DNA of 64,000 nucleotides, taken from contig NC_135719.1 of the NCBI RefSeq assembly GCF_964656455.1, forward strand, positions 72,032,283-72,096,282. The letters are read 5' to 3'. Every line of letters starts with the position of its first letter. Within the stretch, counting starts at the first letter, position 1. Made by a program: the position numbers and the translations under genes. The stretch comes from Halichoerus grypus (lineage: Eukaryota; Chordata; Mammalia; Carnivora; Phocidae). Positions 33,431-48,652 of the stretch are shown one piece after another. Under the pieces are notes generated by a model. That model was not told where the DNA came from. It saw nothing but the letters and a program-made list of their open reading frames with translations, and made no database searches.

Positions 33431-34020
33431 AGCCTCTGTGCACATTTGAAGTTTTGACCTTGATGAGTCACAAATATAGACTGCATTTATTTCATCTTGA
33501 TATTATGGGGGGCATGCCTAAGGCAGAGAAGAAGTCAGTGTAGGTTTGGGTAGGAGTGAGTGGTTAAGGAAAAGTAGAATGCTGATTTTGGGACAGCTTA
33601 GAAATGCTCCAAACTGGAGGCATAGAAGAAATTTATGAGTGTATCTTAGACCATCTGTGGAAAAGGACCAGTTCATTCGTTTTTCACTTTCCAGTACATC
33701 ACAGACCTGTACTTTTATAAAATATGATATATATGAATTCCTAGAAAAATAAAGGGACTGAGAGAGGTAAAATACAAGCCAAAGTTTATTGTTAGATTCT
33801 ACAGACATTAAAATTATTTTGATAAACATGTTCAGAATAAACATAACATGGGGAAAAAATAATTACAAAGCTTATATTGTCCATTTAATGTGGGCACATA
33901 AGCTGTAACTATAGAGAATCAGTGTTATGTTCATAGTTTTCTGTCTCTCTGCAATTATAAACTAATGAAAAGTTATGAATGGAATAGCAGTTTCCCATAC
34001 TAAATGTCTATATGCACACT

Positions 34021-34197
34021 TCTTTAAAAAAAAGATTTATTTGAGAGAGAGGAAAAGCGAGTGGAGGGGAGGGACGGAGGGAGATTCCCTGCTGAGCGTG
34101 GAGCTTGATGCAGGGCTCAATCCCAGGACCCTGAGTTCATGACCTAAGACGAAATCAAGAGTTGGATGATTAACTGACTGAGCCATCCAGGTGCCCC
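34021..34197 (-). mobile_element. CanSINE, older subfamily
   Basis: Antisense CanSINE with the AAATCAAGAGTTGGATGATT signature of the older group and a shortened GA-rich body. Target duplication CTATATGCACACT (34008) against CTATCTGCACACT (34198). Confidence 0.93.
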
Positions 34198-34425
34198 TAT
34201 CTGCACACTTTTAACAAGACCATGTATATTAATATTTAAGGTTTTTTAATGCAATAAGTAAGCGTGTTTCTTGCTTGTTAATTTAGCTAGTATAGTTGAG
34301 TTGGCAATGACATTACTCACGGGGAAGAATTTCCTGTGTTTTCTTTCAGCAAAAATGCACAGTAGAGAATCTGGTCTCACAGAGGTATTTTGACATGAAT
34401 AGGACATGAACAAATTTGTTTTCTT

Positions 34426-34615
34426 TTTTTTTAAGACTTTATTTACTTATTTTTGAGAGAGAGAGCACAAGTAGGCAGAGTGGCAGGCAGAGGGAGAGGG
34501 AGAAGCAGGCTCCCCACTGAGCAGGGAACCCGACGTGGGGCTCGATCCCAGGACCCCGGGATCATGACCTGAGCAGAAGGCAGACGCTTAACCAACTGAG
34601 CCAACTTGGGGCCCC
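34426..34615 (-). mobile_element. CanSINE inside hAT transposase pseudogene
   Basis: Antisense CanSINE (AAGACTTTATTTACTTATTT, GCTCGATCCCAGGACCCCGG, right end GAGCCAACTTGGGGCCCC). Target duplication AACAAATTTGTTTTCTT (34409) against AACAAATTTGTTTCTT (34616). It splits the transposase C-terminus just before the YLCET motif. Confidence 0.95.
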
Positions 34616-34632
34616 AACAAATTTGTTTCTTG

Positions 34633-34685
34633 ACATGAACAAATTTTAAAGTAACTTCTTAACATGAACAAATTTTAAAGTAACT
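34633..34685. repeat. 29-bp tandem duplication in transposase pseudogene
   Basis: The 24-base block ACATGAACAAATTTTAAAGT plus AACT occurs at 34633-34656 and 34662-34685 with a 29-base period. A third, partial ACATGAACAAATTT lies at 34404-34417 on the far side of the CanSINE. Confidence 0.9.
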
Positions 34686-35919
34686 GCAGCAAATTCAGGA
34701 TATTCATTTTTGACTTTTCTCCAGTATGAATCAAATAATACAGTATTTCCAAAATTGATCTTTAATCCTTAATTAGTAGCAAATTTGGACAATTTATTCT
34801 ATAAAGTTAAGATTATAATTAATTTAACTTTCAGTAAAAGAAATGGATTCTGGGTCCGTGGATTTCCTGTGTGTGAATATTCTTACAATGGAAAGTAAAA
34901 TTCAAGGCCTTTCCAGAATTTTTAAGATGTATGTCAATAACTGTGGATATGTAATTTCAAAATCATCACCTGCTTTATTATTAATTATTATTAAATTACA
35001 AGACTATTGACACCCTGTAGAAACTGTTTCTCCAAGCTTCTAAACTTTTCTTTTTGCCCTTTGATCCTACCTGCCATTGAAAACATGTCACATCCTTTAT
35101 TTGAAGGGAAGTATTAAGATCTTTAAAAATATAAAAGGTATCAAACAAATTAGCATGACAGACTGATTTATATCTTTGAAATGTTGAAACTGGTTCTTAT
35201 CTTGCAGAAACACAATAGGTTTGTTCAGTAGTTCAGATATTCCTAATGAAACTTTTCACCTCAGTAACAATCATATCTTAGTAGTTATTTATAATCAGCT
35301 TCTACATTATTACAAATAAAGAATGATTTCAAATTTGGTGCATTAACTTTTATGTAATTTACAGTGTACACTAAGTGCACTTTGTAGTTCAGCCAACATT
35401 TCAGTTTTGTTTTGTAATAAGACTCTTGATGAAGGAAGCAGCCCCTTGATTTACACTGTGCTGCAGCTCTTCCGGAATGCTTTCCTGTTATTATAGCTGT
35501 GCCATTAGTACATACTCCTAAAATTTAAAGTCCATGTCACATTTGTTGATTAATCCTACATTGTTCTATGTAGTGTAGAACTGGTTGTTTTTGAAAATGA
35601 ACCTTAAAAAACAATTCTTCCTTTGTGTCCCCATCATGTTCAAATTGCACATATATTCAAGGAATTGCCACTTTAGTAGTATTTATACACCTGTCTATGC
35701 AACGAAAATTGTCTTACTAGCTTTATTTTATAGTTGATCCGACATAATATTAAGCTTTGGTGTTTGAAAATAACATTTGGAAAATGGCAGTTGAGCTGTC
35801 TTGTTTGATGAGATTCTTTCAGCATTTCCAAGAAAACGTCTTTGATACAGTCTCTTATTAATATTTCAGCACATGTAAGTAGGACTTAGACTTAGCAACT
35901 CAAAGTATTATTTTATAAG

Positions 35920-35952
35920 AAGCCAGCAAAGCACATTAGTTTTTGCTGGCTT
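35920..35952. other. 11-bp perfect stem-loop
   Basis: AAGCCAGCAAA (35920-35930) and TTTGCTGGCTT (35942-35952) are exact complements around an 11-base loop. It lies in the segment after the BED finger of the decayed transposase. Confidence 0.8.
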
Positions 35953-36312
35953 TTTAATTTAATACTCTTTTTTGAAACAGTGATTCCTTTGGTTTTGAAT
36001 TTACTTTTTATAATTTAGATAAAAATATTCATTGGGTCTTAATAGTTTTATTGACTGGAACATCCCTTCAAATAACACACTGTCATTTTACCTCTTAAGC
36101 ATCAATTATGGCTGCAAAACGGAATTCAATATAAAAGAATCATACTTCCAAGTAAAGCTGGTACAACTTTTTGATCTTTATTTCTTTGGAGTGTTGTTCA
36201 TTGCCATCATTTAGTTAACATTATGTTTGCAATCAGGATAGGTTGATCTGTTCTGGACAAAAATGCCCAGTAAAGCTTTTTTTTTAATCTGTAAATTGTG
36301 GTTGAAATTAAT

Positions 36313-36812
36313 ATAGATTTCCCCTGCTATCCAGAAGTAGAACATTCCTATGAAACCTTTTGTAAGCCAAAACAGCATCAGGTAAAGAAGCAATTACCAT
36401 TAATTTATGTGGAAACATTTTTGAGCATTCCCAGACTGAAAAAATAATCTCTCTTAGATTTCTCTGATACCTTAGGATACATCTTGCTAATTAATGGATG
36501 AACAATATAAATTGAGATAAAGCACAGATGCTCACGGGCACAACTCAGGGCTATGGTGGCATGGTGCTGAGATGCTGAGTGTAGTTCTCAGGGAAAGAGC
36601 TTGGGGGGCCACTCTCACTGTTCGGCGTGTGTGCTGCCTCTGTAACAGCTTGCTGCGAAACAAATGCTGAACGCTATTTTTGCTTTTAGCCTTTTTTTCG
36701 TAAAAGCAAAAATCCTCTTTGGATTTCTTTTGGTTAGCAAAAACAGGTACTAATGTAGATCTTTTGTAAAAGCAAAGTGGTGTCATGTGAACTTTAGAAA
36801 AGTGAAGGATAC
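36313..36812. mobile_element. Non-autonomous DNA transposon (Tigger/mariner type)
   Basis: About 500 bp with imperfect inverted termini: left TTTCCCCTGCTATCCAGAAG with GAAACCTTTTGTAAGCC, right CTTTTGTAAAAGCAAAGTGG with ACTTTAGAAAAGTGAAGGAT. Interior GCTGAGTGTAGTTCTCAGGG and TTTCGTAAAAGCAAAAATCC. TA dinucleotides sit at both edges. The minus frame at 36532-36786 lies inside and is not a gene. It sits in the presumed 5' leader of the hAT element. Confidence 0.65.
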
Positions 36813-37152
36813 CTGTAATGCCAATTTCAGATTCCTAACACAGCTAGTGATGTTAAAAGTAGATTTGAAACAGGTTTGGTTAGAATGAAAACTATCAAAG
36901 TGACCTCAAAAGGAACATGTCATGAAGTTCTGTTAGATACAATTAGTAGGCAGCTTGTGTTATATGTGATTTACCAGGAAAGTTCACTGACATCCAAGCT
37001 GGTTCAGTGAGATGAGTCTGGGAATGTGAAATTGCTATGAAAGTTTCTAAATGCTTACTCTCGCATTCTCTTGTTATCTTGTCATGGACCCATAACAAAT
37101 GGCTTGTGGATTGTCACTGGTTCACGGACAACATTTTGTGTAGCACTAAAAT

Positions 37153-37873
37153 AGATGCCTCCTCCAAAACCCTTATGAAGCTGTCATAAGTTCTCCAATA
37201 TTTGCTGAGAGTTACTGGACTGATAACCTACTCCTCTCAGTCATAAAATAAGATTAGGGATTACATTTGGCCATGTGTATCAAAACAAAGCAAATAATGT
37301 GACTTATACAAGGTAGCAGTTATTTTAAAGGCATCTGGTGTGGGTTGTATAGTCAGTGATCCTTTGCATCAGGAACTCAGGCTTTTTCTGTCATTGTTTC
37401 ACTGGACATGGCTTTCTTTTTCACTGTACCTCATGATTCAAGATGGCTTATGTCCACATTCCAGCCAGGGAATGGGATGGGAGAGCGGGAGCTTGGAAGA
37501 GCCTTTTAAGGCACTTTCTGGAATTTGCATGTATTGTTTCCACACACATTTCATTGACAAGAGCTTTAGTTGTAAAACCAGCCATACCAAGTTGCAAGAA
37601 ATTTTCTGAAATGTAATAATTATTCCAGGAAGTTGTGTTCACCTAAGATACTTCAGAACATTAGGCTATCAGGTAGAAAAGAATGTCAGGATTCCATTAG
37701 GCGGCACAAACTATTACAGATTTTTAGCATGAGATAGTGTGATTTACCCCTTTTAGTGACAGGATCTACTCAGGGTCTATGAAGATTTATCCAATTTAGA
37801 ATTTTATAACTGACTTGCATTTTTAAACAACCCCATACTAAATGTATGCAGATTTCTAGCCCGGATGCTAGAT
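37153..37873. other. Unassigned non-coding sequence
   Basis: No repeat or gene recognised between the hAT region and the next CanSINE. Confidence 0.4.
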
Positions 37874-47262: not shown

Positions 47263-48113
47263 AAAAGGGAACCGTCATGCACTGTTGTGGGAATGCAAAC
47301 TGGTGCAGCTGCTATGGAAAACAGTATGGAGGTTCCTCAAGAAATTAGAAGTAGGACTGCCATGTGATCCAGCAATCCCACTTCTGGGTATATATCCAAA
47401 GGGAACAAAATCATTATCTGTAAGAGATGTCTGTTTTTCCATGTCCATTGCAGCATTATTCACAATAGCCAAGGTATGGAAACAATCTAATTATCTCTCA
47501 ATGTACAAATAGATAAATGTGACCTATACCTGTGAGAGATCGATTGATTGATCCATCAATAGATATGTATATACACATACACACACACATAGAAGTACTG
47601 TTCACCCTTAAGAAGGAAATTCTGCCATTTGCAGCAACACAGATGAATCTGGAAGGCTTTATGCTAAGTGAATAAACCAGAAAGAGAAAGATGAATACTT
47701 CATGATAATCACTTATATGTGGAATATATATATATATATATAAAGGAAGAAAGTTGAACTCAGAAACCAGAATAGAATGGTGGTTGCCAGAAGCCGAGAC
47801 TAGGGGAAATGGGCAGAGGTTGATAAAAGGGTATAAAATTTCAGTTATAAGATGAATAAGGTCTGAGGATCTAATGTATATAACATGGTGACTATAGTTG
47901 ATAAGACTGTATTGTATAATTGAAATTTGGTAAGAAAGTAGCACTTAAATTTAAGTGCTCACCAAAAAAAAAAAAAAAGGTAAATTTGTGAGGTGATGGA
48001 TGTGTTTAACTTGATTATGGGAATCCTTTCATAATGTGTATGTATATCAAGTCATCATGTTGCACACTTTAAATATATTACAATTTTATTTGTCAATTAT
48101 ATCTCAGTAAAGC
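47263..48113 (+). mobile_element. LINE-1 (L1M) 3' end, sense
   Basis: ORF2 end and 3' UTR in sense: GGGAATGCAAACTGGTGCAG, CCAGCAATCCCACTTCTGGG, GCATTATTCACAATAGCCAA, GAATGGTGGTTGCCAGAAGC, CATGGTGACTATAGTTGATA, and the terminal GTCAATTATATCTCAGTAAAG. A (TA)n run lies at 47725-47742. The 20-base perfect palindrome AGCACTTAAATTTAAGTGCT is at 47940-47959. Confidence 0.92.
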
Positions 48114-48136
48114 TGGGGAAGGAAAGGAAGAGTAGG

Positions 48137-48652
48137 AGTTCTTAAAGTATAGCCTGGGATCACTGGAGGTCCCTGCCTAAGACACTGTTAGTGGGTTCAG
48201 GAGTCAAATGTATTCTTGTAATAATACTTAGAAGTAATTAGCTGTTTTCATTCTCACTCTTTTACAAGTGTACAGTGGAGTTTTCCAGAGGCTACATGAT
48301 GTGTGATGTTACAACAAATTGGATGTAGAATTAGATATGAGAATCCATCTGTTTTCTATTAAGCCAGACATTAAAGAGATTTGCAAAAATGTAAAACAGT
48401 GCCATTCTTTTTACTGATATGTTTTTGGTTTGGGAGAATGTAGTTATTTTTCATAAAATATTTATGTTAAAGTGTAATCAGTTTACTATGTTATTTTTAG
48501 ATGAATTTAATATTTAAAAATTTCCTGGTTTTAATTTGTAACATGTAAATATCCATAGATAGAATCCACATTTTTAAAAAATGCTCTTTGGAATCCTTAA
48601 TAACTTTTAAGAGTATAGGGGAGTCCTGAGTCCAAAAAGTTTGAAAATTGTT
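48137..48652. mobile_element. hAT (Charlie-like) non-autonomous DNA transposon, near full length
   Basis: Both ends visible: left GTTCTTAAAGTATAGCCTGG with ATCACTGGAGGTCCCTG, right GAGTCCTGAGTCCAAAAAGT with TTGAAAATTGTTGA. The interior has AGTGTACAGTGGAGTTTTCC, AGGCTACATGATGTGTGATG, TTAAGCCAGACATTAAAGAG, TTTGCAAAAATGTAAAACAG, a layout I know from a mammalian hAT family whose name I cannot fix. The hAT-style termini (TTCTTAAA and its diverged complement) are preserved. Confidence 0.75.

Follow-up and report, generated by a model that had tools for sequence, protein, structure and literature searches.

The question raised by this locus is whether a series of short peptide motifs on the minus strand of a 64,000-nucleotide stretch of the Halichoerus grypus genome (NC_135719.1; hereafter the window) is the remnant of a hAT transposase and, if so, whether it arrived as an old Charlie-type element or as a retrocopy of a ZBED-like gene, the two origins that a sequence-only reading of the region 34330-36215 had proposed. 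All seven motif strings listed in that reading were recovered on the minus strand at the starts given there:

36071..36082, minus strand: QCVI, remnant of the BED finger (string search, profile alignment, alignment to the L002 ORF)
start 35932, minus strand: ALLASYK (string search)
start 35632, minus strand: GDTKEELFF (string search)
35471..35518, minus strand: GVCTNGTAIITGKHSG, which we take to be a catalytic-core landmark of hAT transposases (string search, profile alignment, alignment to the L002 ORF)
start 35210, minus strand: FLQDKNQF (string search)
34682..34723, minus strand: WRKVKNEYPEFAAV, landmark of the C-terminal region (string search, alignment to the L002 ORF)
34361..34387, minus strand: YLCETRFST, C-terminal motif past the SINE (string search, profile, alignment to the L002 ORF)

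The motifs had been described as lying largely in one frame down to 35288; six of the seven do share a frame, and FLQDKNQF is in another. The longest minus-strand stretch between stop codons inside 34330-36215 is 79 amino acids, in agreement with the statement that no single frame spans the region. As set out below, the sequence is very probably what is left of an autonomous Buster/Charlie-type hAT DNA transposon, now dead, from the family that supplied the hAT exon of the SCAND3 gene.

A transposase remnant detected by a family-specific profile

A seed alignment of ZBED5, FAM200A and ZBED8 was compared with a protein database; of the 7980 candidates scored, 1184 matched at E≤0.001. The profile used here was built from the best 120 of these 1184 database proteins, which include named ZBED5-like, FAM200C-like and DUF4371 proteins, and not from the three seed sequences. 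Searches of the whole window by tblastn with the 120 proteins gave 107 rows at E≤0.01, confined to two places: 84 were on the minus strand with midpoints at 34.5-36.0 kb and 23 were at 48.3 kb on the plus strand. With the ZBED5 seed sequence alone, four of the five best tblastn rows were located in the 34330-36215 region, with a best E of only 0.19.

All six frames of the window, with stops read as X, were scanned with the profile. Four minus-strand matches collinear with the transposase profile were obtained: at 36136-35276 (profile 36-351, E 4.3e-12), at 35092-34670 and 35154-34873 (E 2.7e-4 and 3.5e-4, respectively, both inside profile 399-559), and at 34405-34325 (profile 561-587), the last being weak by itself (E 0.092). 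A frameshift-tolerant alignment scored 152 bits over positions 22-587 of the 617 in the profile, compared with a mean of 21.5 bits and a maximum of 32.4 bits for 100 dinucleotide shuffles. Of 82 overlapping 3-kb stretches covering both strands of positions 1-63001, just two outside this locus exceeded 30 bits, and both contain the 48.3-kb fragment (45 bits). With a significant profile match and motifs that are collinear along it, the proposal of a buried hAT transposase stands.

Pfam searches with seven single open pieces yielded unrelated weak matches only, all under the cut-off, and the read-through with X at stops produced one weak unrelated match with neither zf-BED nor Dimer_Tnp_hAT. A family-specific profile was needed because Pfam misses both the open pieces and the read-through. 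The read-through matched no protein in the database at E≤0.001 and none in the PDB. The ZBED5 seed sequence matched no PDB chain and no viral contig, the alignment of ZBED5, FAM200A and ZBED8 had no match in viral contigs, and scans of the window with Rfam at gathering scores and for tRNA genes were empty. The fossil is thus a worked example of a protein remnant that is invisible to Pfam and visible to a family profile.

The plus-strand matches mark a second hAT remnant at 48313-48408 (within ~48100-48650) that comprises the last ~30 residues of a transposase. Its best match was protein P0060 (67.7% over 31 amino acids, E 1.5e-7) and its profile E was 8.8e-5. The surroundings have the look of what we presume to be a short non-autonomous Charlie-type copy.

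Dispersed copies and an intact relative

The genome that holds the window (2.4 Gb, 170 contigs) was searched with the DNA of positions 35000-36200, and 14 matches were found, counting the window, at 13 loci on six contigs. The other 13 matches were 66-81% identical with E down to 1.1e-27, and two of these belong to one copy. The 12 other loci comprise one intact sequence, L002, and eleven broken copies (L010-L020), several of which are partial and whose residue identity to the intact L002 ORF is 45-58%.

Positions 971-2887 of L002, minus strand, form an intact ORF of 638 codons. In the jaguarundi, SCAN domain-containing protein 3 isoform X3 has a SCAN domain in addition to a hAT part, and this hAT part shares 92% identity with the protein encoded by L002. 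We accordingly interpret the L002 ORF as the SCAND3 hAT exon (presumably the gene is also named ZBED9); it is the closest intact relative of the window fossil found in the genome. In Pfam searches the intact ORF matched Dimer_Tnp_hAT (5.4e-05), with zf-BED under the cut-off (17.6 vs 20.6 bits).

Alignment of the window to residues 1-638 of the L002 ORF showed 258 of 584 residues to be identical, interrupted by 16 internal stops and 15 frameshifts. The alignment has one jump, over a SINE, and the profile alignment jumps from 34666 to 34406. In the BED finger remnant, QCVI and its neighbors were aligned in place, with stops at 36097, 36085 and 36070, and the alignment covers the C-terminal dimerization region to either side of the SINE, the insertion of which accounts for most of the spacing between WRKVKNEYPEFAAV and YLCETRFST. 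The aspartate of the C[ST]DG motif, which we take to be a catalytic residue, is replaced by asparagine (CTNG) in the window, and the catalytic residues are not intact. The CTNG change and the broken frame are expected of a fossil, and thus bear on activity and not on descent.

Extent, termini and later insertions of the element

The element, its parts and its later inserts are as follows:

33637..37148, minus strand: the complete hAT element in its decayed state, gross length 3512 bp (flank homology to other copies)
37129..37148, minus strand: TAGTGCTACACAAAATGTTG, terminal inverted repeat of the 5′ end (16/20 in agreement with the majority motif from five other copies)
36818..37128, minus strand: outer part of the 5′ untranslated region (L016 upstream region, two blocks)
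36314..36815, minus strand: TA-flanked high-copy repeat of ~502 bp in the hAT 5′ untranslated region (genome search)
34249..36288, minus strand: transposase pseudogene from the BED-type N terminus to the C terminus (alignment to the L002 ORF, profile match)
34627..34684, minus strand: 29-bp tandem duplication in the coding fossil (repeat family D2, 97%)
34426..34615, minus strand: SINE in the coding fossil (target duplication 34616-34631 / 34409-34425, 16/17 bp)
34246-34248, minus strand: stop codon position after the pseudogene (alignment to the L002 ORF)
34022..34196, minus strand: second SINE, within the 3′ untranslated region (13/14 identical target duplication at 34197-34210 / 34008-34021)
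33637..33686, minus strand: 3′ terminal region (alignment of the final 60 nt from L013 and from L015)

The interval 34330-36215 that had been assigned to the fossil is too short: the coding fossil runs from 36288 to 34249 and the whole element from ~37148 to ~33637. Subtraction of the three inserts and the 29-bp tandem duplication leaves a net element of ~2.58 kb, compared with 2534 bp between the terminal repeats of L013. In the copies compared, shared 3′ flank reaches ~400 bp past the stop and shared flank is also present upstream of the start.

At the 5′ end, the terminal repeat agrees at 16 of 20 positions with a motif formed by the majority of five other copies, a score that was reached by one of 500 shuffles of the 1200-bp flank. 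The 5′ flank has 18 matches in the genome, the window included. When the query was extended by 552 bp past the 5′ end, 22 of 29 loci matched (23 rows) and none continued beyond 37160; the outermost starts were at 37160 (L039), 37155 (L044), 37149 (L050), 37147 (L047) and 37147 (L013). An initial scan for terminal repeats employed motifs that were built partly from the window, which made the window scores circular, and was set aside.

At the 3′ end, homology extends to 33638 in L013 and L015. Alignment of the last 60 nt was equaled in 6 of 500 shuffles for L013 and in 4 of 500 for L015, and was not significant for the other three of the five copies, L010, L012 and L014. The 16-base 3′ repeat motif by itself lacked significance in the window, where 324 of 500 shuffles did as well. 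The 5′ end is supported by the repeat and by the shared end; the 3′ terminal repeat is weak. Termini of a CAG...CTG-like form recur among the copies.

A candidate 8-bp target duplication, ATCTATTT/ATAAATTT, agrees at 6 of 8 positions, the octamers having been picked by eye; agreement of at least 6/8 has a chance probability of 0.0075 for one fixed octamer pair, and the window pair was eye-picked. Automated pairing of octamers gave the window 2/8 only, having taken another 3′ end, and across 24 copies the automated test was mostly negative, with two copies at 6/8 and one at 5/8.

The TA-flanked repeat at 36314-36815 has TA on both sides and is situated 25 bp upstream of the position of the fossil start codon. 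It has 1278 candidate places in the genome, of which 40 were scored and 39 others were 77-81% identical; by its ends we take it to be Tigger-like. The hAT upstream homology resumes past this insertion. Both SINEs are, we assume, of the carnivore type.

The short copy L050 carries both terminal repeats (18/20 and 17/20) 232 bp apart between flanks that agree at 6/8. This arrangement is as expected of a non-autonomous derivative, and the element family seems to have such derivatives, represented by L050 and by other short matches to the 5′ flank.

Transposon copy, retrocopy or exapted DNA

By plain identity, the sequences closest to the window are three SCAND3 proteins (45-47%), which speaks for a processed retrocopy of the SCAND3 gene (or of another ZBED-like gene) that was made via LINE machinery and later decayed. 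However, SCAND3 is expected to be closest on this measure because it changes slowly and stays near the common ancestor. The homology, moreover, passes beyond the exon into both flanks that are common to other copies and up to a shared end, and no poly-A was found at 33637 when the sequence was read at both element ends.

Substitution patterns separate the fossils from SCAND3. Pooled mismatch between fossils at codon positions 1, 2 and 3 was 0.433, 0.394 and 0.443, which is nearly flat, as in neutral decay, and mismatch between fossils and SCAND3 was 0.336, 0.286 and 0.423, a pattern that looks as if one side were constrained. A position was counted as diagnostic when ≥60% of the remaining fossils had a common base that differs from that of SCAND3. 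Of 160 such positions, the window agrees with the fossils at 108, with SCAND3 at 29 and with neither at 23, a pattern that resembles that of other fossils. The amino acid version, with 23 sites (11 fossil, 6 SCAND3, 6 other), pointed the same way more weakly. Comparison with outgroup transposases at 47 sites was ambiguous (10 SCAND3-like, 6 transposase-like, 25 other, 6 missing): the excess of SCAND3 states over transposase states lends the retrocopy some support, but an excess of 10 to 6 is what one would expect were SCAND3 and the fossils descended from a common element.

In a phylogenetic tree, from which fossil L019 was left out with <250 aligned residues, the fossils and SCAND3 were split from all other proteins with support of 1.000. 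The three SCAND3 sequences formed a clade of their own (1.000) that excludes the window fossil, and the fossils were on long tips with short internal branches. Overall, the codon-position, site and tree tests speak for a separate transposon copy in neutral decay rather than for a retrocopy of SCAND3. The retrocopy origin, one of the two proposed, is disfavored by the flanks, the diagnostic sites and the tree, and we judge it highly improbable. The other, an old Charlie-type element, is supported by the dispersed copies, the flank homology to shared ends, the CAG...CTG-like termini and the fossil-like site pattern.

A decayed element might also have been exapted as non-coding DNA, for example as an enhancer, and be conserved at the locus on that account. 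Ancient transposon protein fossils that are conserved in non-coding roles have been reported (PMC9004415), and the near-flat codon-position divergence does not touch this case as it bears on coding constraint only. Nevertheless, three later insertions and a tandem duplication have been tolerated within the element, and there is very little likelihood that it was retained for such a role. Chance assembly of short peptide motifs, with which the failure of all seven open pieces to match Pfam above the cut-off when taken alone would agree, is refuted for practical purposes by the score of 152 bits, where 100 shuffles gave 32.4 at most, the collinear alignment to 638 residues and the DNA matches at other loci (E down to 1.1e-27).

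Probable mode of life, decay and age of the transposon

The preferred reading is thus a dead autonomous hAT transposon. It is of an ordinary kind, an ancient hAT fossil with at least a dozen dead copies in the genome; Charlie serves as a provisional family name. An intact element would encode a transposase, the BED finger of which would bind DNA, and the enzyme would be predicted to excise the element and to insert it at an 8-bp target, a cut-and-paste mode suggested by membership of the family. After insertion, the window copy decayed by stops, frameshifts, the tandem duplication, the TA-flanked repeat and the two SINEs, with no sign of coding constraint. Judged from its sequence, the copy cannot transpose because the frame is broken throughout. 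Its present state is most likely that of inert, neutrally decaying DNA that presumably lacks a function.

The pooled mismatch between fossils of ~0.42 corresponds to ~0.3 substitutions per site per copy (Jukes-Cantor), and the mammalian substitution rate is near 2.2e-9 per year. The age of the element is probably >100 million years, an estimate that is inflated by misalignment and is a rough guide.

Proposed capture of the family as the SCAND3 exon

A 5′ terminal repeat of hAT-like form is located 419 bp upstream of the ATG of the SCAND3 exon (L002/L009; 15/20; 3 of 500 shuffles), which suggests in-place capture of an element. A 3′ element end was looked for at the exon and was not found.

Proteins P0123-P0128, P0133, P0153, P0164, P0177 and P0197 cover 45-100% of the mammalian SCAND3 exon and, within the covered part, share 58-70% identity with it. 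They derive from the glass sponge Oopsacas minuta, the acanthocephalan Pomphorhynchus laevis, a sea turtle and others known from contigs. This degree of identity in invertebrate and other proteins raises either horizontal transfer or contamination as a possible source. We tentatively entertain, at somewhat less than even likelihood, that the fossil is from a family that was captured in place as the SCAND3 hAT exon and that, given the similarity of the contig-derived and invertebrate proteins to the exon, this family entered mammals by horizontal transfer.

The locus itself is of little import, being another dead DNA transposon, and what modest interest it has comes from its link to SCAND3. The family connects datable dead copies to a living gene, such that the capture could be dated and polarized.

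Comparison with SCAND3 and other hAT-derived systems

The SCAND3 hAT exon is collinear with the window over the whole protein (258/584 residues identical). SCAND3 has an intact frame, which in the jaguarundi protein is joined to a SCAN domain, whereas the window copy has 16 stops and 15 frameshifts. ZBED5 (Buster1), FAM200, ZBED8 (Buster3), ZMYM6 and their relatives have the same hAT architecture as the window, as seen in the profile match. The eleven proteins of the ZBED5/FAM200/ZBED8/ZMYM6 type in the tree, some without a database name, are 22-27% identical to the window fossil over aligned residues and thus much further from it than is SCAND3. Repeats of the hAT-Charlie group have CAG...CTG termini and a size near 2.6 kb, and the termini and size of the window element would fit these features.

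In the literature, ZBED5 is placed in the Buster branch of hAT elements, with Buster2-4 proposed as ZBED7-9 (PMC3606216), and Repbase is described as holding many Charlie families (PMC5753468). SCAND3 has been called related to the human Buster proteins (PMC3499496) and, in another paper, is listed among retroelement (rve) genes and as an exceptional fusion (PMC3257199). Among the matches listed for literature that joins SCAND3 and transposons, none describes this element family in the portions available.

TcBuster, of the Buster branch, is active whereas the window copy is dead. According to the TcBuster study, human Buster1, Buster3 and SCAND3 failed to mobilize TcBuster, and its target duplications are 8-bp nnnTAnnn sequences (PMC3499496). 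The candidate duplication of the window fits this nnnTAnnn pattern on one side, ATCTATTT.
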